Below, one piece after another: positions 23,192 through 33,308 of a stretch of DNA of 34,206 bases. Where the stretch lies: contig RFGE01000274.1 of the NCBI GenBank assembly GCA_003696105.1, forward strand, positions 1 through 34,206, read 5' to 3'. The translations under genes were made by a program, and so were the position numbers. Position 1 is the stretch's first letter. Each line of letters begins with the position of its first letter. Below the pieces are notes generated by a model. The model was not told the origin of the DNA and made no database searches. It was given only the letters and a program-made list of their open reading frames with translations. The stretch comes from Deltaproteobacteria bacterium. GTDB lineage: Bacteria; Myxococcota_A; Polyangia; Haliangiales; J016.

Positions 23192-24493
23192 ATGGTTTCG
23201 ACGATCCCACACGATGCGTTTGCACGTCTCACGGCCCGGCTGTCCGCCGCGCAGCACGCGCACGGCGCGCACTACCGCGGCGACGCGGGCGCACGACAGC
23301 CCGTCCACACGGTCTACGGCGGCGCGCACCTGTTTCGCGCCGACACTGCCGCGAAGCTCGGCCGTCTCGCGCTGCAGGCGCTCGACGCGCACGCACCGGA
23401 TGCGCCGACGCTGATGGCGGCAATGGGGGTCGAACTCGCTCCCGAGTTGGCCGACACGGTGTACCGGCGGGTGCGCGCGAAGCTGGAGCGCGAGCCGGTC
23501 GAGGACTTCCGCATCGACTTCGAAGACGGCTACGGCAACCGGCCCGACGACGAGGAGGACGCGTGCGCGATCGCGGCGGCCGAACAGGTCGCCGCCGGGA
23601 TGGCCGCCGGCTCGCTGCCGCCATTTTGTGGCATCCGCATCAAACCGCTGTCCGAGGAACTCGGCGCCCGCGGACTGCGCACGCTCGACCTGTTTCTCAC
23701 CACGCTTGCCGGCGCGACCGGCGGCCGTCTGCCGGCGGGGTTTGCCGTCACGTTACCCAAGATCGTTTCGCCCGCACAGGTTGCGGTGCTCGTCGACGCA
23801 TTCGAGTTGATCGAGGAACGGCTCGGAATGCAACCCGGTGCGCTGCGCCTCGAGCTCATGATCGAAACCACTCAGGCGATCGTGGGGCCGGACGGCGCGT
23901 GCGCCTTGCCTCGGCTGCTGGCCGCCACCCGCGGCCGCTGCGTCGCCGCGCATTTCGGTACCTACGACTACACGGCGAGTTGCAACATCACCGCCGCCCA
24001 CCAACACATGCGCCACCCCGCGTGCGACTTCGCGCGCCACATGATGCAGGTCGCCTTCGCGGGCACCGGTATCTGGCTGTCCGACGGCGCGACCAACATC
24101 ATGCCGATCGGCGATCGCGCCAGCGTCCATGCCGCGTGGCGCCTGCACGCCGCCGACATTCGCCACTCGCTCGTGCACGGGTTCTACCAGGGGTGGGATC
24201 TGCACCCGGCGCAGTTGCCCACCCGCTACGCCGCAGTGTACGCATTTTTCCTCGAGGCGCTGCCGGCGGCGAGCGAGCGGTTGGCGAACTTCATCGCAAA
24301 AGCGGCGCAGGCCACGGTCGTAGGCGACGTGTTCGACGACGCGGCGACCGGCCAGGGGCTGCTGAACTTCTTCTTGCGCGGCGTGAGCTGCGGGGCGATC
24401 ACCGAGCAGGAGGCGACGGCGACCGGCATTACCCTAGACGAGCTGCGCAGTCGATCGTTCGTCACGATCTTGAACAACCGGCGGGGCGCGTGA
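23192..24493 (+). CDS. CitE/HpcH-like aldolase or lyase family protein (DUF6986-like)
   Basis: A 433-residue TIM-barrel protein of the citrate lyase beta/malate synthase-like superfamily. The acidic stretch EDFRIDFEDGYGNRPDDEED (near 110-129) resembles a metal-binding acidic loop. The superfamily arginine is in FCGIRIKPLSEE, and LRLELMIETTQAI carries the catalytic Glu strand. The central HFGTYDYTASCNITAAHQHM contains the HFGxYD motif. The C-terminal half includes SLVHGFYQGWDLHPAQLPTRY. It is longer than CitE (about 300) and I place it with the uncharacterised DUF6986 type; that name is from memory, not a search. It stands next to the urate locus, where glyoxylate is the expected end product, so an aldolase acting on glyoxylate is an attractive but unproven idea. 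The stop overlaps the next start (TGATG). Confidence 0.75.
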   Translation: MVSTIPHDAFARLTARLSAAQHAHGAHYRGDAGARQPVHTVYGGAHLFRADTAAKLGRLALQALDAHAPDAPTLMAAMGVELAPELADTVYRRVRAKLEREPVEDFRIDFEDGYGNRPDDEEDACAIAAAEQVAAGMAAGSLPPFCGIRIKPLSEELGARGLRTLDLFLTTLAGATGGRLPAGFAVTLPKIVSPAQVAVLVDAFELIEERLGMQPGALRLELMIETTQAIVGPDGACALPRLLAATRGRCVAAHFGTYDYTASCNITAAHQHMRHPACDFARHMMQVAFAGTGIWLSDGATNIMPIGDRASVHAAWRLHAADIRHSLVHGFYQGWDLHPAQLPTRYAAVYAFFLEALPAASERLANFIAKAAQATVVGDVFDDAATGQGLLNFFLRGVSCGAITEQEATATGITLDELRSRSFVTILNNRRGA

Positions 24494-25245: not shown

Positions 25246-25578
25246 CTAACTGCCGCGGTAGGTCGCGTAGCCGAACGGGCTCAGCAACAGCGGCACGTGG
25301 TAGTGAGCGTCGCCGTCGCGAACGTCGATGACGACGTCGACGTACGGGTAGAAGCCGCGCGTTCCGGTGGCTGCGAAGTACGAGCCGGTGTCGAACCGCA
25401 GCCGGTACACGCCGGGTTCGATCCCGTCGGTCAACCGCGCGATCCGGCCGTCGGAGTCGGTGGTCGCGCTGCCGCGCGGGACGAATGCGTCGCCGTCGCG
25501 CATCTCGAGCGCAACCGGCACCCCGGCTGCCGGCCGGCCGCGCGCAGTGTCCAGGACGTGCGTGCTGATCGTGGTCAT
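25246..25578 (-). CDS. uraH: 5-hydroxyisourate hydrolase (transthyretin-like)
   Basis: A 110-residue protein. The family triad positions are present: His7 in TISTHVLDTARG, Arg45 in DGRI, and His92/His94 in DAHYHVPLLLSPFGY. The C-terminal Y-R-G-S tetrapeptide distinguishes HIU hydrolases from transthyretin. The enzyme opens 5-hydroxyisourate, the product of urate oxidation, to OHCU. It has no signal peptide, so it acts in the cytoplasm. It is the last gene of a four-gene operon, with its ATG overlapping the uraD stop (ATGA). The length is standard. Confidence 0.95.
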   Translation of the reverse strand: MTTISTHVLDTARGRPAAGVPVALEMRDGDAFVPRGSATTDSDGRIARLTDGIEPGVYRLRFDTGSYFAATGTRGFYPYVDVVIDVRDGDAHYHVPLLLSPFGYATYRGS

Positions 25579-26039
25579 CGCGATGCCTCCTTCAGGGCGC
25601 GGGCAAGCCGCAACCGCGTGATCTGAAGCTGCTCCGCGGCCGCGATGCGCAGTTCCGTAGCGCGGTCGTTGTCGATCCGCGCGCGGAGCGCCGCGAGCAT
25701 CTCGCCGGCCGTCTTGCCGGTCGCGCAGATGAGGAACACGAAGCCGAACCGGCGTTCGTACGCGCGGTTGCCCTCGGCAAGCGCGGCGAGCGTGTCGGCG
25801 TCCGCGCCGCGCACGCCGGCCTGCTCGCGCGCCGACGCGCCGGACGCGGTGCGGTCGCCGATGCGCGGATGCGCGGCGAACGCCTCGAGCCAGTCGTCCG
25901 GGCCGAGTTCGCGCCACACCGCATCGGCCGCCGCGAGCGCCGCATCGGCGTCGGCAAACGGTTGTGCGGCCAACATTCCAGCGACCCAGCGCGACGCCGC
26001 GCAGCATTGTCGCAGTGCCGTCTCGGACAGTTCGATCAC
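25575..26039 (-). CDS. uraD: OHCU decarboxylase
   Basis: A 154-residue helical protein with the signature AFAAHPRIGDR (catalytic His57), preceded by LGPDDWLEAF. The conserved NRAYERRFGFVFLICATGKTA segment follows. It decarboxylates 2-oxo-4-hydroxy-4-carboxy-5-ureidoimidazoline to S-allantoin. The start is a GTG at 26039 overlapping the alc stop (GTGA), and its stop overlaps the uraH ATG, so translation is coupled on both sides. UraD and UraH work in sequence immediately after urate oxidase. Confidence 0.95.
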   Translation of the reverse strand: MIELSETALRQCCAASRWVAGMLAAQPFADADAALAAADAVWRELGPDDWLEAFAAHPRIGDRTASGASAREQAGVRGADADTLAALAEGNRAYERRFGFVFLICATGKTAGEMLAALRARIDNDRATELRIAAAEQLQITRLRLARALKEASR

Positions 26040-26971
26040 GTCGCACGCCTCCCGTATAGCCGCAGCCGCGCGACGCCGCCGTCCGGATAAATGTTGAGCC
26101 TCGCGCGCACCGCCACCGGTCCCGGCGCGAGCGGCAACTCGTGCAGCCGATCCGGCGACAGCGGCGTACGCGGCAACACCTCGTGCCAGCTTCCCCCCGC
26201 GTCCTCGACTTCGAGAGAGCACGCTGCGGGCGCGTTGCCCTTGAAGTGTTGCGTGTCGACCACCGCGCGCACGAGGTGGCCTGGGGCACCGAGCCGGACG
26301 ATCGCCCAGTCGTGCCCCGGTCCCCGCCGGCGCCGCGTCTCCCAGCCGTCTCCCATGTGGGTCGCGTCGCCGGGCAGGATCAGGTTGTGGCGCGAACCGA
26401 AGTGCATGTCGCTGCACGCTTCGACGACACCGCCAAAGGCGATCGACGCCAGATCGCACTCGGCCGGAGCACGCTGCCAGTCTGGCACCACGCGGCCGTG
26501 CACGCGCAGGCGCGCAACGCCGCCGTCGGGATAGATGTTGAGTCGCACGTGGGTCACGCGGCCGGCAGCGCCGACGACAAACCGATTGCGAGCGTCCCCG
26601 CACAGCGGCGACCGCGGGACGGCTTCGACCCAATCGCCGCCCGCGTCCGCGTCGCGCACGTCGATCGAGCACGCCTCGGGATAGTTGCCGGTGAAGTGCG
26701 CCGTGTCGACCACGATGCCTTCGACGACGCCGGGCAATCCGAGGCGCACGACGCACCAATCGTGACCGGGCTGTCGGCGCCGCCGCGTCTCCCAGCCGTC
26801 CATCCATTTCCCGCGGTCCGTGTAGCGATCCGGGTCGAACACCGGTGCCGCTGCGCGCACGAGGTTGGCCATCGGCGCGAAGAACTCGTCGTTGCAGTCG
26901 ACCGCGCGGCCGCCGAGTCGTTCGTTGGCCAGATCGACCGCATCGGTGAAGTCGAAGTCGGATGTGGTCAT
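26036..26971 (-). CDS. alc: Allantoicase
   Basis: A 311-residue protein made of two homologous jelly-roll repeats. Both carry a WETRRRRxPGHDW block (GWETRRRRQPGHDWCVVRLG; GWETRRRRGPGHDWAIVRLG), a VVDTxHFxGNxPxACS block and an RLNIYPDGGVARLRxxG block. The N-terminus has LANERLGGRAVDCNDEFFAP, typical of the family. It cleaves allantoate to ureidoglycolate and urea in the cytoplasm. The start overlaps the allB stop by 4 bp (ATGA). It is slightly shorter than fungal allantoicases but complete. Confidence 0.96.
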   Translation of the reverse strand: MTTSDFDFTDAVDLANERLGGRAVDCNDEFFAPMANLVRAAAPVFDPDRYTDRGKWMDGWETRRRRQPGHDWCVVRLGLPGVVEGIVVDTAHFTGNYPEACSIDVRDADAGGDWVEAVPRSPLCGDARNRFVVGAAGRVTHVRLNIYPDGGVARLRVHGRVVPDWQRAPAECDLASIAFGGVVEACSDMHFGSRHNLILPGDATHMGDGWETRRRRGPGHDWAIVRLGAPGHLVRAVVDTQHFKGNAPAACSLEVEDAGGSWHEVLPRTPLSPDRLHELPLAPGPVAVRARLNIYPDGGVARLRLYGRRAT

Positions 26972-28326
26972 GACGCCGCCAGCAATTGCCCCGCGGGTTT
27001 CCCGCAGTGCCGTCCGTCGCGGTATATCGCGACGCCGCGCAAGTAGGTAGTCCGAACCGCGCCGTGCAGGGTGTCGCCGTCGTACGGCGTAACCGGGTTG
27101 CGGTGGTGCAGCCGCGTCGCGTCGACGGTCCACGCGACGTCCGGGTCCCACACCACGAGATCCGCGTCGCACCCCACCGCGATGCGCCCCTTGCGCGCCG
27201 ACAGCCCCGCGAGCCGGGCCGGCGCGACGGACAGCCACTGCGCGAGCCGCTCGACGCCGAACCCGCGGCGCCGCGCCTCGGTCCACGTCACCGCCAGGCC
27301 AAGTTGCAGCGACGCGATCCCGCCCCACGCGTCGGCGAAACTGCCGCTGCCGCGGCGCTTGAGGTCGGGCGTACACGGCGAGTGGTCGGTGACGACCATG
27401 TCGAGCACACCCGCGGCCAGCGCCTCCCACAGCCGCTCGCGGTGATGCGCCTCGCGGATCGGCGGCGCGCACTTGAACGCGGTCGCGCCGTCCGGGATCG
27501 CCTCGGCACAAAACCGAAGGTAGTGCGGACACGTCTCGGCCGTCACGGCGAGCCCGTCGTCTCTCGCGCGCGACAGCGCGTCCAACGATCCGGCCGACGC
27601 GTGATGGACGATGTGCACGGCCGCACCCGTGTCGCGGGCCAGCCGAATCATGAGATCGACGGCGCGATCTTCGGCCTCCGGCGGCCGCGACGCAAGGTAG
27701 GTCGCATAGCGGCGCGCGTCGCCGCGCAGCGCCCCCGCTGCCGCGGCGATCGCGTCCGGGTGCTCGGCGTGGACGAGCAGCGGCCGGCCGAGGTCGCGCA
27801 GGCGCGCGAGTGCGGGCCGCAGGTCGGCGTCGCCGACGTGCGGAAACTCGTCGACGCCCGACGGCACGAGGAAACACTTGTAGCCGAGCACGCCGCCGCG
27901 CGCGAGCGGCTCCAGGTCGTCGAGGTTGCCCGGCACCACGCCGCCCCACAGGCCAACGTCGACCCAGCACTGGCCGGCCGCCGCGGCGCGCTTGCTCGCG
28001 AGCGCATCCGCTGTCGTCGTCGGCGGGATGGAATTGAGCGGCATGTCGACGATCGTCGTGACCCCGCCGGCGGCCGCGGCGCGCGTGGCGGCAGCGAATC
28101 CTTCCCACGCCGCGCGGCCCGGTTCGTTGACGTGGACGTGCGTATCGACGAGACCGGGTGACACGACCGCGTCGCCGGCGTCGTCGATCGGGCAACCGGC
28201 GGGCACGTCTGCGTACCCCGCGATCGCGACGATGCGACCGCCCGCGACGTGAATGGACGCGGGGGCCGGCGCGCCGGTGCCGGCGACGACGCGCGTGGAC
28301 CGGATGACGAGATCGGGTGCGACCAT
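26968..28326 (-). CDS. allB: Allantoinase
   Basis: A 452-residue amidohydrolase of the cyclic amidase group. Metal ligands can be read: His63/His65 in VDTHVHVNEPG, carbamylated Lys150 in LGYKCFLVPSG, and His residues in LVHAEH and IVHHAS. The Asp is in VTDHSPCTPDLK. The PLNSIPPTT segment is characteristic of allantoinase rather than dihydroorotase or hydantoinase. It hydrolyses allantoin to allantoate. The start MVAPDLVIRSTR at 28326 is chosen because the domain begins there and TATGCT lies just upstream. It is the first gene of the allB-alc-uraD-uraH operon and is divergent from the puuD-like gene. Confidence 0.95.
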   Translation of the reverse strand: MVAPDLVIRSTRVVAGTGAPAPASIHVAGGRIVAIAGYADVPAGCPIDDAGDAVVSPGLVDTHVHVNEPGRAAWEGFAAATRAAAAGGVTTIVDMPLNSIPPTTTADALASKRAAAAGQCWVDVGLWGGVVPGNLDDLEPLARGGVLGYKCFLVPSGVDEFPHVGDADLRPALARLRDLGRPLLVHAEHPDAIAAAAGALRGDARRYATYLASRPPEAEDRAVDLMIRLARDTGAAVHIVHHASAGSLDALSRARDDGLAVTAETCPHYLRFCAEAIPDGATAFKCAPPIREAHHRERLWEALAAGVLDMVVTDHSPCTPDLKRRGSGSFADAWGGIASLQLGLAVTWTEARRRGFGVERLAQWLSVAPARLAGLSARKGRIAVGCDADLVVWDPDVAWTVDATRLHHRNPVTPYDGDTLHGAVRTTYLRGVAIYRDGRHCGKPAGQLLAAS

Positions 28327-28328
28327 GC

Positions 28329-28341
28329 GCTCGCGAGCATA
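28329..28341. promoter_or_regulatory. allB -10-like TATGCT overlapped by a 10-bp palindrome
   Basis: On the minus strand TATGCT (28336-28341) ends 9 nt before the allB ATG. The perfect palindrome GCTCGCGAGC (28329-28338) overlaps it and is placed where a repressor could block initiation. It lies in the 135-bp spacer shared with the puuD-like gene. No regulator gene is nearby. Confidence 0.35.
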
Positions 28342-28461
28342 GCGCCGCTTTGCACGAGTTGCGCACGCGCGGCGCCGGCGACCCGCGAGGCGACGGTCGG
28401 CGGCCGCGCGTCGTGCCGTTTTGCGGTACGCTGGCGCGGCGCGCACGCGCGCCGTTCCGTC

Positions 28462-30129
28462 ATGGACCCGACACTTCACGAGTGGATCAGCCTGGCGCTA
28501 CGGTGGATGCACGTGATCGCGGCGATCACGTGGATCGGCCACGCGCTGTTCTTCAACTGGCTCGACGCGATGCTCGAGCGCTCCGACAAAGACGGGGTCG
28601 AGGGCGACCTGTGGATGGTCCACAGCGGCGGCTTCTACCTGGTCGAGAAGCTGCCGAAGGTGCCGCCGGCCATGTTGTCGCGCATGCACTGGTTCAAGTT
28701 CGAGGCCCTGTTGACGTGGGTATTCGGCTTCGGCCTCCTCGGCGTCGTCTATTACATGGGCGGCGCCGCGCTGACGGTCGATCCCGCGGTGGCCGATCTC
28801 AGCGCAGGCGCGGCGACCGCGATCGGCATGGGCACATTGATCGGGGGATGGCTGGTCTACGACCTGTTGTGGATCTCGCCGCTGGCGCAGCGGCCGCGGG
28901 CGGCGGCCACCGTGTCGTTCGCGCTGCTGATCGCCGTCGCGTACGGGCTCACCCACGTGTTCAGCGGGAGGGCCGCGTTCCTTCACGTCGGCGCGCTGAT
29001 GGGCACGATCATGGTCGCCAACGTATGGATGCGGATCATCCCGGCCCAGCGGCAGCTCGTAGCGGCGACGCGCGCCGGCGAGGAGCCGGACCGGACGCTT
29101 GCGGCGCGAGCCAAGAATCGTTCCCGGCACAACAACTACATGACCTACCCGGTCGTGTTCGCGATGATCAGCAGTCACTACTTTCACACGTTCGGTGCGC
29201 GCAACGCATGGCTCGTATTCGCCGCATTGTTCGTCGCCAGCGCCGGCATTCGCCACCTGATGAACTTGCGCGGCCGGTTCAGCGCGCCGGCCGCCGCCGT
29301 CGCCGCGGCCGCCGCCGTCGCGGCGATTGTGCTGACGATGCCGGAGTCCGAGCCAACCGGCCGCGCGGATACGGCTGCCGCGCGCCTCGCCCCCGCCGGC
29401 GCGCCCGCTGCACGCTCGGCGGCGCCGTCGCCGGCCACGACCGGCCCGCCCGCCGCACACGACACCGCACCGGCCGCTGCCGGCGCAGTCGGGCGCGGCG
29501 CCGGCAGCATCCGCGGTGTCGTCACGTATTCCGGCCCGTTGCCGCCGCCCCGCGAGCTGACCCTCGCGCCCGGCTGCCAGGCGGGCCACGGCGGCCGCGT
29601 GTCGCTGCAGACCGTGCGCGCGACCGACGGCAAGCTGGCCGGCGCCGCGGTGTGGCTGGCCGGCACACCGCCCGGCCCGATCCCGCCGCCACCGAATGCG
29701 AGTGTCGAAATCGACCAAGCCGGTTGCATGTACACGCCGCGCGTCGCGACGGCGCAGGTCGGACAGCCGATCACGTTCATCAACAGCGATCCGCTGCTGC
29801 ACAACGTCCATGCGTTCGCGGGCGACGACACCGTGTTCAACCGCGCGATGCCGGCCCGCGGTATGCGCATGGCGCAAACACTGGACGAACCCGGGATTGT
29901 CCACGTCAAGTGCGACGTGCACCCGTGGATGAGCGCCTACGTGGTCGTGACGGAACACCCGTGGCACGCCGTCACGGACGACGCCGGGACGTTCGCGCTC
30001 ACCGGCGTCCCGGCCGGCCGTTACACGCTACGCGTGTGGCACGAAACGCTCGGCGAGCGCACGGCCGAGGTCACGGTCGCCGCCGGACAGACCGCCCATG
30101 TCACCGTGGCGTTCGACGCCCCACCGTAG
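28462..30129 (+). CDS. puuD: PuuD-type membrane urate oxidase fused to a cupredoxin-like domain
   Basis: A 555-residue protein. Residues 1-~290 are a multi-helix membrane domain matching urate hydroxylase PuuD: ISLALRWMHVIAAITWIGHA, VHSGGFYLVEKL, WFKFEALLTWVFGF, YGLTHVFSGRAAFLHVGAL, MVANVWMRIIPAQR and RHNNYMTYPVVFAMISSHY. Known PuuD proteins end in a cytochrome c domain, but no C-x-x-C-H occurs anywhere here. After an Ala/Pro linker (~300-345) comes a beta domain (about 347-500). Its His447, Cys484, His487 and Met490 have the C-x2-H-x2-M spacing of a type 1 copper site such as amicyanin. A regulatory-type beta module follows (TDDAGTFALTGVPAGRYTLRVWHE). Urate is oxidised to 5-hydroxyisourate. 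Copper as electron acceptor is inference. It is divergent from the allB operon that consumes the product. Confidence 0.9.
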   Translation: MDPTLHEWISLALRWMHVIAAITWIGHALFFNWLDAMLERSDKDGVEGDLWMVHSGGFYLVEKLPKVPPAMLSRMHWFKFEALLTWVFGFGLLGVVYYMGGAALTVDPAVADLSAGAATAIGMGTLIGGWLVYDLLWISPLAQRPRAAATVSFALLIAVAYGLTHVFSGRAAFLHVGALMGTIMVANVWMRIIPAQRQLVAATRAGEEPDRTLAARAKNRSRHNNYMTYPVVFAMISSHYFHTFGARNAWLVFAALFVASAGIRHLMNLRGRFSAPAAAVAAAAAVAAIVLTMPESEPTGRADTAAARLAPAGAPAARSAAPSPATTGPPAAHDTAPAAAGAVGRGAGSIRGVVTYSGPLPPPRELTLAPGCQAGHGGRVSLQTVRATDGKLAGAAVWLAGTPPGPIPPPPNASVEIDQAGCMYTPRVATAQVGQPITFINSDPLLHNVHAFAGDDTVFNRAMPARGMRMAQTLDEPGIVHVKCDVHPWMSAYVVVTEHPWHAVTDDAGTFALTGVPAGRYTLRVWHETLGERTAEVTVAAGQTAHVTVAFDAPP

Positions 30130-30204: not shown

Positions 30205-30768
30205 TCAATCGGCCTGCGGCGCGTCCGCGTCGTCGACCGGCGACGTGACCTCGAAGAACACGCCCTCGCCGAACATCATGTAGCCGTATGCGTTTCCGAA
30301 CGCAGCGCAGGACTGTGCGCGCGCCGCGTCGACCCGGCGCATCTGCTCCTCGGTCGGCCACTTGTTGTGGTCGAGCGTCGCGCGGCAGTTATTGGCCAAC
30401 TCCCCCTCGCGGTGGAGCGTGAGCGCCGCGTCGCGCATCATCTCGATCCACGGCTCCTTTGCCGCCGGGTTCGCGGCGAGCTGCGGATCGGTCTGGAAAT
30501 ACAGCGTCGCCATCACGTTCCAGAACGCCTTGTCGTCGATACATTCGATCAACCGCCGGTAGTTGGCCTCGCAAAACGCCTGCACGCGGTCGCGCGGCGG
30601 CGCCGGGACGACGGGTTGCGGCGCGACGGACACCGGCTCCGGCGCGACCGCGGCGTCGGCCGGGGCCGCCGCGCGTTGGGAAGCGGGCCGATGGCCGTCG
30701 GCGTCCCGCCGATCGCACGCCGCCGAACACGCGAACACGAACGCCGTCGCAACGATCCTGATCGTCAT
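30205..30768 (-). CDS. Lipoprotein with helical Cys-containing domain, function unknown
   Basis: A 187-residue lipoprotein. The signal MTIRIVATAFVFACSAAC ends in lipobox Cys18, followed by an Ala/Pro/Val tether of ~45 residues. The C-terminal ~125 residues are helical and contain AFCEANYRRLIECIDDKAFW, NNCRATLDHNKWPTEEQM and SCAAFGNAYGYMMFGEGVFF, with four Cys that could form two disulfides. No family is recognised. ATG 30768 is preceded by a good GGAGAGGAG ribosome binding site and overlaps the stop of the upstream repeat-protein gene by 4 bp, so the two are translated together. Confidence 0.75.
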   Translation of the reverse strand: MTIRIVATAFVFACSAACDRRDADGHRPASQRAAAPADAAVAPEPVSVAPQPVVPAPPRDRVQAFCEANYRRLIECIDDKAFWNVMATLYFQTDPQLAANPAAKEPWIEMMRDAALTLHREGELANNCRATLDHNKWPTEEQMRRVDAARAQSCAAFGNAYGYMMFGEGVFFEVTSPVDDADAPQAD

Positions 30769-33308
30769 GGCTCCTCTCCGCCACCGCCGCGGCGAACCAC
30801 GACGACGACCTCGGTGACGCGGCCGGGCGCGACCGCGACGGGGTCCGGGTGCGCAAACCAGGTCGGTCGCCCCGCAGCTTCGTTTTCCTCTACCGTGCCG
30901 ACGCGATACACCCACAACCGGTAGCGGCCCACCGGCAGCGCCGGGAACGAGAACAGGCCGCCGGCCTCCGTTTTCACGACCGCCACCGGCGGCATGTCGT
31001 CCGGACTCGCCGCGGCCACGTCGGTCACGGCTACGGCGCGCTGGTCCACGGGCTGGCCCGGATCGACGAGCGCGCCGCTGATGCCGCCCGTGGCCGCCTC
31101 GGCCAGCCGCACCTCGACGGTCGTCTGCGCCTCACCGACATCGATCCAATCGGATGCCGCATCGTCCGTCGACGCCTTGACCCGCAGCGGCACGCCGGCT
31201 GCGAGCGTCGGCAGCGCGAACCGTCCGTCCGCGTCCGACTCGAGTGTGGACACTCGGCCGCGCACGGCGACCGACACGCGCGCCTTCGCAACCGGTCGAC
31301 CGTCGGCGTCGACCACGACTCCTGAACGGGCAATGCCGCGACGGACGACGATGTCGCCAAGGTCGACGTCGCGCCCGTCCACCTCGAACGGCTCCTCGAT
31401 GTACGTATCCTCGATGCCCGGCCCGGTCACGCGCAACCGGTAGCGGCCGTCCGGCACGCGCGCGAGCACGAACCGGCCGTCGGGTGCGACGAACCACTTC
31501 GGCGGCGGGAACATCTCCGGGGCATTCTTCAAATGCCCCAGCGCGAGACTCACGCCGAACTCGCGCACCGGCGAACCGCCGCGCAACACGACCCGCCCCC
31601 GCACGGCGGTGAGCTTCGGCAGCACGATCGTGGCGTCGTCCCCAGGAAACACCGGCCGCACCTGCGCGGTCCCGTAGGTGGGACTCGTCGACGTCGGCAT
31701 CGCGCGGCTCGCGATCAATCGATACGCACCGGGCGGCAACGCCGCGATCGAAAAGCGACCGTCGGCGTCGGCCCTGACCGCCCCTTTCGCGCGCAGCATC
31801 GCCCACCGCGGCGGCACCTCGCCGGGCGCGAGCGACTCGACGACGTCGGGAGCGTCGTAACCGTCTTCGTCGACGAGATGATCAGGCCGATAGGCGACGG
31901 TGGCGTACGGCACCGGGCTGCCGTCCGGCTCCGCGACGGTCCCGGCGATGCGCCCCGCATTCACCAGTGCGACGTGCACCCCGGCGACGACCGGTGTGGA
32001 GGTCAGGTCGACGTCCACCAGGTCGCTCGACGCGTCATCGGTCCACGCATACACGGCCACCGGTACCCGGTCGACGCCGGAAAACGCAAACCGACCCGCG
32101 TCGTCGGTGCGCGCGCGAAACCGAAAGTTCTGCTCGAACATGGGCTCCAGTTCCATGTCGCGTTGCGTGACGACAACCGTGGCAGCGGCGACCGGCGCTC
32201 CATCCGCGTCCACCACGACTCCCTCGATGCGGCCGCCGTCTTCCAGTTGGATGACCACCTCGGGCGGCGGCCGGCCGCGGAGCGCGGTGACTCCGCAGCG
32301 TTCACCCATCTGGTAGCCGGGCGCCGTGGCGGTGACGCAGCCGGTCCCCTCGGCCGCGGTGAGCTCGAAGCGGCCCATCGCGTCGGTGGTCACGGCATCC
32401 ACTCGGCCGGCGCGCAAAAACGGAGACGTGACGCCGTCGGGCAGCGGCACCTGGCGCCGCGGGTCGAACGCGACCAACGCGCCCTGCACCGGCGCGCCGG
32501 CGGCGGTGACCACGCGGCCGGCCAGCCGCGCGCCTGGCGCGATCGCGACCCGCGCCCGCCACGTCCGGTTCGGGTGCGCCGCGGCGACGAGGTGCTCGTA
32601 CGCCGGCACGTACCCGGGCGCGCGGACGCGAACCGCATGGTTCGCGGTCGCCGTGACGCCGCGAAACGTCGCGACCCCGTCGGCGCCGGTCGTCTCCTCG
32701 CGCGACACGTCCGCGTCGCCGAACTCCGGGTCGCCCGCCCACAGGCCGACGCTCGCGCCGGCGACGGGCGCCGCCGTGTCGGCGTCGACCACCTCGATCT
32801 CGACGCGCGCACCGGGAACGAGCACCAGCACCGCCTCCGGCGCGCCCGGCGCGGCGCGGTGAGCGATCGTCGGCGACACGTCGTCGCCGTCGGTCGCCTC
32901 GAGTTGATACGTGCCGGTGAGCAGGCGTTCGAACGCGAACCGCCCGTCGGCGCCGGCGGTGCGAACGCGATCCTCCGGCTGCGGCGCCGCCGCGGCGTAG
33001 GGGCGCCCGACCAGGTGCACCGTCGCACCGGGTACCGGCTCGCCGGTGGGACGAATGACGCGTCCGCGGAGTGGCGCGTACGCCGCGGCCGGGATCGCGC
33101 GGACCACCGGGCCGCGGCGCCGGGCGGCCGCCCGCGGCACGCGCGGTGCAGCGCCCACCGCGTCGTTGCGGCCGCCGGCCGCCGGGTCGCGCACGCCGGC
33201 ATCCCCGGCGCTGCGCCACCACAGCGCGAGCGCCGCCGCGAGCGCAATGGCCGCGGCCGCGACCCACCGCCGCGGCGCACCGCGCCGGTTCGCGGGTTCG
33301 TCAGGCAC
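30765..33308 (-). CDS. Carboxypeptidase-regulatory-like repeat protein, membrane anchored
   Basis: An 847-residue protein. An N-terminal hydrophobic anchor at ~15-31 (VAAAAIALAAALALWW) is followed by about eight prealbumin-like beta modules of 80-100 residues. Each runs from G-x-V-x-x-x-G-x-P-V-x-x-A-x-V through a D-x-x-G-R-F sequence, for example DADGRFSIAALPPGAYRLIA, SDADGRFALPTLAAGVPLRV and APDGRFVLARVPDGRYRL. Such CarboxypepD_reg/transthyretin-like repeats build elongated surface or periplasmic stalks. No peptidase or TonB-barrel domain is attached. The GTG start at 33308 is preceded by TATACT at 6 nt. The small lipoprotein gene follows with a 4-bp overlap, suggesting a complex of the two. 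Confidence 0.85.
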   Translation of the reverse strand: MPDEPANRRGAPRRWVAAAAIALAAALALWWRSAGDAGVRDPAAGGRNDAVGAAPRVPRAAARRRGPVVRAIPAAAYAPLRGRVIRPTGEPVPGATVHLVGRPYAAAAPQPEDRVRTAGADGRFAFERLLTGTYQLEATDGDDVSPTIAHRAAPGAPEAVLVLVPGARVEIEVVDADTAAPVAGASVGLWAGDPEFGDADVSREETTGADGVATFRGVTATANHAVRVRAPGYVPAYEHLVAAAHPNRTWRARVAIAPGARLAGRVVTAAGAPVQGALVAFDPRRQVPLPDGVTSPFLRAGRVDAVTTDAMGRFELTAAEGTGCVTATAPGYQMGERCGVTALRGRPPPEVVIQLEDGGRIEGVVVDADGAPVAAATVVVTQRDMELEPMFEQNFRFRARTDDAGRFAFSGVDRVPVAVYAWTDDASSDLVDVDLTSTPVVAGVHVALVNAGRIAGTVAEPDGSPVPYATVAYRPDHLVDEDGYDAPDVVESLAPGEVPPRWAMLRAKGAVRADADGRFSIAALPPGAYRLIASRAMPTSTSPTYGTAQVRPVFPGDDATIVLPKLTAVRGRVVLRGGSPVREFGVSLALGHLKNAPEMFPPPKWFVAPDGRFVLARVPDGRYRLRVTGPGIEDTYIEEPFEVDGRDVDLGDIVVRRGIARSGVVVDADGRPVAKARVSVAVRGRVSTLESDADGRFALPTLAAGVPLRVKASTDDAASDWIDVGEAQTTVEVRLAEAATGGISGALVDPGQPVDQRAVAVTDVAAASPDDMPPVAVVKTEAGGLFSFPALPVGRYRLWVYRVGTVEENEAAGRPTWFAHPDPVAVAPGRVTEVVVVVRRGGGGEEP

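Follow-up and report, generated by a model that had tools for sequence, protein, structure and literature searches.

The window analyzed here, a stretch of 34,206 nucleotides from the genome of a Deltaproteobacteria bacterium (GTDB lineage Myxococcota_A; Polyangia; Haliangiales; J016; assembly GCA_003696105.1, contig RFGE01000274.1), encodes a protein which its membrane domain and its context assign to the PuuD family, and which lacks the cytochrome c hallmark published for this family. According to Doniselli et al. (2015; PMC4562309), the CxxCH motif is strictly kept in every PuuD sequence; the window protein carries a predicted type 1 copper cupredoxin domain instead, and this copper-tailed PuuD is a new variant with respect to the published CxxCH-invariant proteins. 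No earlier report of a copper-type PuuD was found in the literature covered, most subscription papers and all preprints lying outside it. Based on the sequences and on a structural model, it is probable that this enzyme is a respiratory, copper-wired PuuD, in which the electrons taken from urate would pass via the type 1 copper to the respiratory chain.

Architecture of the protein and its predicted copper site

The ORF is intact, and its translation agrees with the first-pass annotation. In a Pfam search of the translated ORF, the Urate_ox_N domain (PF06181) matched residues 4-291 with 338.5 bits (E 5e-101; cut-off 26.9 bits), the match spanning 2-291 of 295. The window protein has retained 34 of the 38 columns showing at least 95% conservation in 89 cytochrome-type PuuDs, H17, H54, H223, and H239 among them, which bears out the PuuD-type N-terminal membrane half proposed in the first-pass annotation; judging from these residues, nothing in the catalytic half looks degenerate. 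The characterized PuuD and the window protein have in common a membrane domain of eight helices, conserved His/Arg/Asn positions, a purine gene neighborhood and, as predicted in the latter case, a periplasmic C-terminal redox domain located behind a variable linker, whereas the redox domain itself is a CxxCH cytochrome c in the former (Doniselli et al., 2015; PMC4562309). The topology predicted for PuuD is N-out/C-out with eight helices (PMC4562309), and the loop charges also indicate an outside C-terminus in the window protein. When the membrane domain was modeled alone, no significant match was obtained with any solved structure (best E 0.17), so that no structural relative from which its redox cofactor might be named was found among the solved structures.

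Table 1. Positions in the window of the fusion gene, its parts, and the neighboring purine genes.
Feature	Position	Strand	Remarks
uraH, 5-hydroxyisourate (HIU) hydrolase	25246..25578	-	NCBIfam TIGR02962, above cut-off
uraD, OHCU decarboxylase	25575..26039	-	NCBIfam TIGR03180, above cut-off
alc, allantoicase	26036..26971	-	NCBIfam TIGR02961, above cut-off
allB, allantoinase	26968..28326	-	divergent from puuD; NCBIfam TIGR03178, above cut-off
divergent intergenic region allB/puuD	28327..28461	.	putative site of both promoters
puuD-cupredoxin fusion gene	28462..30129	+	555 aa; ATG at 28462, stop at 30127-30129
PuuD/DUF989 membrane domain (Urate_ox_N), residues 4-291	28471..29334	+	8 predicted helices
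flexible linker, Ala/Pro-rich, residues 293-346	29338..29499	+	pLDDT <50 at 297-337; sequence
cupredoxin/CarboxypepD_reg module, residues 347-553	29500..30120	+	homolog of a widespread stand-alone protein
cupredoxin core, residues 411-497	29692..29952	+	amicyanin alignment
His447, predicted type 1 copper ligand	29800..29802	+	amicyanin His position in HNVH
Cys484-x2-His487-x2-Met490, predicted type 1 copper ligands	29911..29931	+	amicyanin loop spacing
CarboxypepD_reg-like beta module, residues 490-550	29929..30111	+	Pfam match

The absence of a cytochrome c, which had also been noted at first reading, was found to hold: a sequence scan identified no CxxCH motif downstream of the membrane domain, and no cytochrome c match to the protein was obtained in Pfam or among the PDB sequences. 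The regulatory-type beta module described in the C-terminal part corresponds to a CarboxypepD_reg match in Pfam (E 4e-11). An artefact in the form of a chimeric contig or a frameshift was ruled out, the same architecture being intact at 22 further loci. The fusion gene, the product of which terminates in a CarboxypepD_reg-like module, is adjoined by a gene (30768-33308, - strand) encoding a protein of 847 aa in which CarboxypepD_reg is repeated about six times.

Residues 447, 484, 487, and 490 of the window protein are H, C, H, and M, respectively. In a phmmer search against the PDB sequences, amicyanins and other cupredoxins matched the region of residues ~411-496, with these four residues placed under the amicyanin ligands. 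The Pfam Copper-bind domain (PF00127, residues 414-496) gave a weak match of 17.4 bits, below the gathering cut-off of 21.2, and the amicyanin equivalog TIGR02657 (NCBIfam) gave 26.4 bits, far below the curated cut-off of 110.2. The structure prediction called for in the first-pass annotation was performed with AlphaFold2 on 62 homologous rows, and yielded a model with a mean pLDDT of 85 in which the C-terminal domain (~95) adopts a confident cupredoxin fold resembling solved blue-copper proteins, while the linker is disordered at residues 297-337. The best 50 PDB matches obtained with Foldseek all have a cupredoxin fold (amicyanin, plastocyanin, pseudoazurin, CuA domains, and NirK), and amicyanin 1aaj superimposes on the model of the copper domain with a TMt of 0.70 and an rmsd of 2.3. 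At the level of sequence and model, it was thus confirmed that the C-terminal domain is a cupredoxin with a canonical, amicyanin-spaced predicted type 1 copper site. The fold, the ligand set and the C-x2-H-x2-M spacing are those of amicyanin and related blue copper proteins, but the domain differs from amicyanin in its additional CarboxypepD_reg-like strands, its tether to a membrane enzyme and its score below the equivalog cut-off: its predicted fold and ligands place it among the type 1 copper proteins, but not as an amicyanin ortholog.

The four ligands are kept in all the 97 modules aligned: 22/22 fused, 3/3 split, and 72/72 others, the latter comprising 20 modules adjacent to a DUF989 gene, two from the same genome as the window, and 50 stand-alone ones (the Acidobacteriota fusion L291 is a later find, and lies outside the count of 22). 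The set of four ligands noticed at first reading was therefore found to be invariant in these modules. The fused modules show an overall identity of only ~44% among copies, with intact ligands, and this conservation appears from the alignment to be more than chance. One of the paralogs from the same genome, L176, has one residue more in the ligand loop (CDAGHTWM). Elsewhere in this genome (contig C63, L178:1414-3723), a protoporphyrinogen-oxidase-like frame runs into a decayed cupredoxin/CarboxypepD_reg module from which the Cys-His-Met copper loop is missing. The existence of such a decayed relative is what might be said for an unused copper site in a domain playing only a structural role; this is extremely improbable, as the four ligands have remained intact in the window protein and in every aligned fused copy despite their low overall identity.

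Purine neighborhood and proposed electron path

The four purine-pathway neighbors named in the first-pass annotation, uraH, uraD, alc, and allB, each scored above the corresponding NCBIfam cut-off. The genome, which is 98% complete, carries a single Urate_ox_N protein: a second PuuD, the existence of which had been seen as a possible challenge to the first reading, was sought and no such protein, of the cytochrome type in particular, was found, and neither was a soluble uricase. A gene encoding a DUF6986 protein (malate-synthase-like TIM barrel, PF22484, E 4e-186) is located near the purine cluster (23192-24493, + strand). DUF6986 genes occur repeatedly beside PuuD in many loci, directly downstream of it in L301, for example, and this recurrence suggests that DUF6986 may act at a later step of purine or glyoxylate metabolism.

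In A. fabrum, PuuD is required for urate use and does not raise catalase; urate oxidation without H2O2 has been indicated in this case, and the electrons are thought to be routed from a urate site on the cytoplasmic side to the periplasmic cytochrome c (Doniselli et al., 2015; PMC4562309). In the copper-wired enzyme proposed here, the DUF989 membrane domain would likewise work on the cytoplasmic side, oxidizing urate to 5-hydroxyisourate, an activity known in the case of the cytochrome-type PuuD, and UraH and then UraD would take over this product on the same side. The electrons would traverse the membrane domain via some cofactor and reach the tethered periplasmic type 1 copper, which would cycle from Cu2+ to Cu+ at H447/C484/H487/M490 in replacement of the usual heme c, and would then hand them on singly, either to a cytochrome c or straight to a heme-copper oxidase. 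With a heme-copper oxidase as the end point, oxygen would be reduced to water, so that no H2O2 would be made.

Two COX1 genes encoding heme-copper oxidases are present in the host genome. A paralog of the copper module (L177/L260), which is a predicted lipoprotein, has its gene flanked by ctaA and a gene for a cytochrome c, and this location may be taken as a supporting hint in favor of the respiratory route. Three Cytochrom_C_asm matches (cytochrome c assembly genes) were also identified in the genome: the bacterium is presumably able to make heme c, a lack of which did not impose the use of copper, and the loss of cytochrome c maturation was ruled out as the cause of the swap. In the case of the amicyanin of methylotrophs, the electrons pass from a dehydrogenase to amicyanin and then to cytochrome c.

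Distribution and origin of the DUF989-cupredoxin fusions

The architecture was searched for by scanning the GTDB species genomes and by performing PF06181 searches on Myxococcota (379 genomes), Planctomycetota (294), and Acidobacteriota (297). This mapping of its spread, which the first-pass annotation had recommended, yielded 23 distinct DUF989-cupredoxin fusions, including that of the window, in these three phyla. At least one of the allB, alc, uraD, and uraH genes occurs near 19 of the 23 fusions, within the DNA stretch examined at each locus. The full-length PuuDs in the loci read consist of 77 cytochrome-type, nine copper-fused, and three with an adjacent copper gene in Myxococcota, three cytochrome-type and six copper-fused in Planctomycetota, and one copper-fused and 13 bare in Acidobacteriota. 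The motif WMVHxGGFY was considered as a marker of purine linkage and was dropped, since most of the cytochrome-type PuuDs fail the pattern and many of these are still located in purine clusters.

Other arrangements of the two parts were also observed. In the planctomycete locus L221, which contains a complete purine cluster, the cupredoxin precedes DUF989 in the protein, and this reverse-order fusion is the only case which, taken alone, requires a second arrangement. In a Byssovorax MAG (L053/L151), PuuD and the cupredoxin are encoded by separate divergent genes, again in a complete purine cluster, and the split copper protein has a lipobox-like signal. In L156 and L157, which are divergent, a copper gene is also adjacent to that of PuuD, and no purine genes are located nearby. 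The reverse-order fusion and the split pair are hard to explain unless both parts work together.

In the tree of modules, the window copper module groups with the stand-alone paralog L176 from its own genome (SH-aLRT 96), apart from the main fused clade, which suggests that the window copper domain may have had a separate, local origin; the relatives of the window from the same order carry cytochrome-type PuuDs (L131, L137-L139, and L143). The trees suggest that the fusion may have arisen several times independently. A single clade comprising all the fused and split copper modules was not rejected by the AU test (p 0.125), nor was the separation of the membrane domains into one copper and one cytochrome side (p 0.89), the higher score in the latter comparison being that of the tree constrained to these two sides. 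Since neither single clade was rejected, multiple origins are no more than suggested.

PuuD and DUF989 proteins lacking a tethered redox domain

Full-length PuuDs in which the C-terminal redox domain is missing were identified in Acidobacteriota (L292-L303 and L049; L293:6578-7408, for example). In 10 of these 13 cases, uraH/uraD/alc/allB genes are present in the locus, and the few kb surrounding most of them show no obvious gene for a cytochrome c or a cupredoxin. The presence of bare PuuDs in intact purine clusters indicates that the family has no strict need of a tethered redox domain. The window protein might therefore be a true urate oxidase passing its electrons to a quinone or a diffusible partner, with the copper domain as an accessory used for docking, for copper storage or as a minor bypass, since DUF989 is evidently able to work with a partner in trans, or with none, in the full Acidobacteriota clusters. 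We consider this unlikely, because the copper domain sits at the place occupied by the cytochrome c domain in other PuuDs, and the copper ligands never vary in modules which occur in two orders of fusion as well as in split neighbors.

Shorter DUF989 proteins (mostly frames of ~210-350 aa) are encoded outside purine clusters, often with an adjacent cupredoxin-module gene. Such pairs were found in Planctomycetota (L196, L200, L203-L205, L209, L211-L216, and L184) and Omnitrophota (L058, L086, L090, L095, and L098); adjacency to a cupredoxin was ruled out as a general trait of DUF989, as it was observed in none of the 20 short Myxococcota DUF989 loci. Because this same cupredoxin neighbor occurs outside purine clusters, one might argue that the window protein acts on a different substrate and that the urate step is carried out by another enzyme, such as an FAD-type HpxO/HpyO. 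This is very unlikely in a protein which has retained nearly all the conserved PuuD positions, the gene of which is adjoined by uraH/uraD/alc/allB, in a genome having neither a uricase nor a second PuuD.

The cytochrome, copper (fused or split), and bare forms, along with the short DUF989 proteins paired with a cupredoxin, make the redox partner look modular. A broader proposal, which we put forward only tentatively, is that DUF989 may be a general membrane oxidase core with a plug-in acceptor, which could be a cytochrome c, a type 1 copper protein attached to either terminus or supplied by an adjacent gene, or an untethered partner; the pairing of DUF989 with a cupredoxin would then possibly be as old as the cytochrome form or older, and in Planctomycetota and Omnitrophota it would also serve oxidations of substrates other than urate. 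The copper-type PuuDs point to a family of DUF989-copper pairs, the substrate of which may be other than urate.

The copper module itself is homologous, over residues ~345-555 and with 35-46% identity, to stand-alone cupredoxin/CarboxypepD_reg proteins of Omnitrophota, Acidobacteriota, Myxococcota, and others. These proteins have all four ligands, but they are separate, whereas the window copy is fused to PuuD. Plastocyanin and cytochrome c6 are copper and heme proteins filling a single electron-carrier slot; they are separate carriers swapped by regulation, whereas in PuuD a domain is replaced within an enzyme family. The recurrence of this heme-versus-copper difference within one family amounts to a natural experiment on the electron transfer of a membrane urate oxidase, and the copper PuuD would connect the degradation of purines with respiration and with the supply of copper. 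The soluble, probably colored copper domain could serve as a reporter making the electron path of PuuD directly measurable. Likely urate oxidases are missed by CxxCH-based annotation. Among the Myxococcota PuuDs, L013, L125, and L160-L162 carry a pair of CxxCH motifs downstream of the membrane domain, which may correspond to diheme tails.
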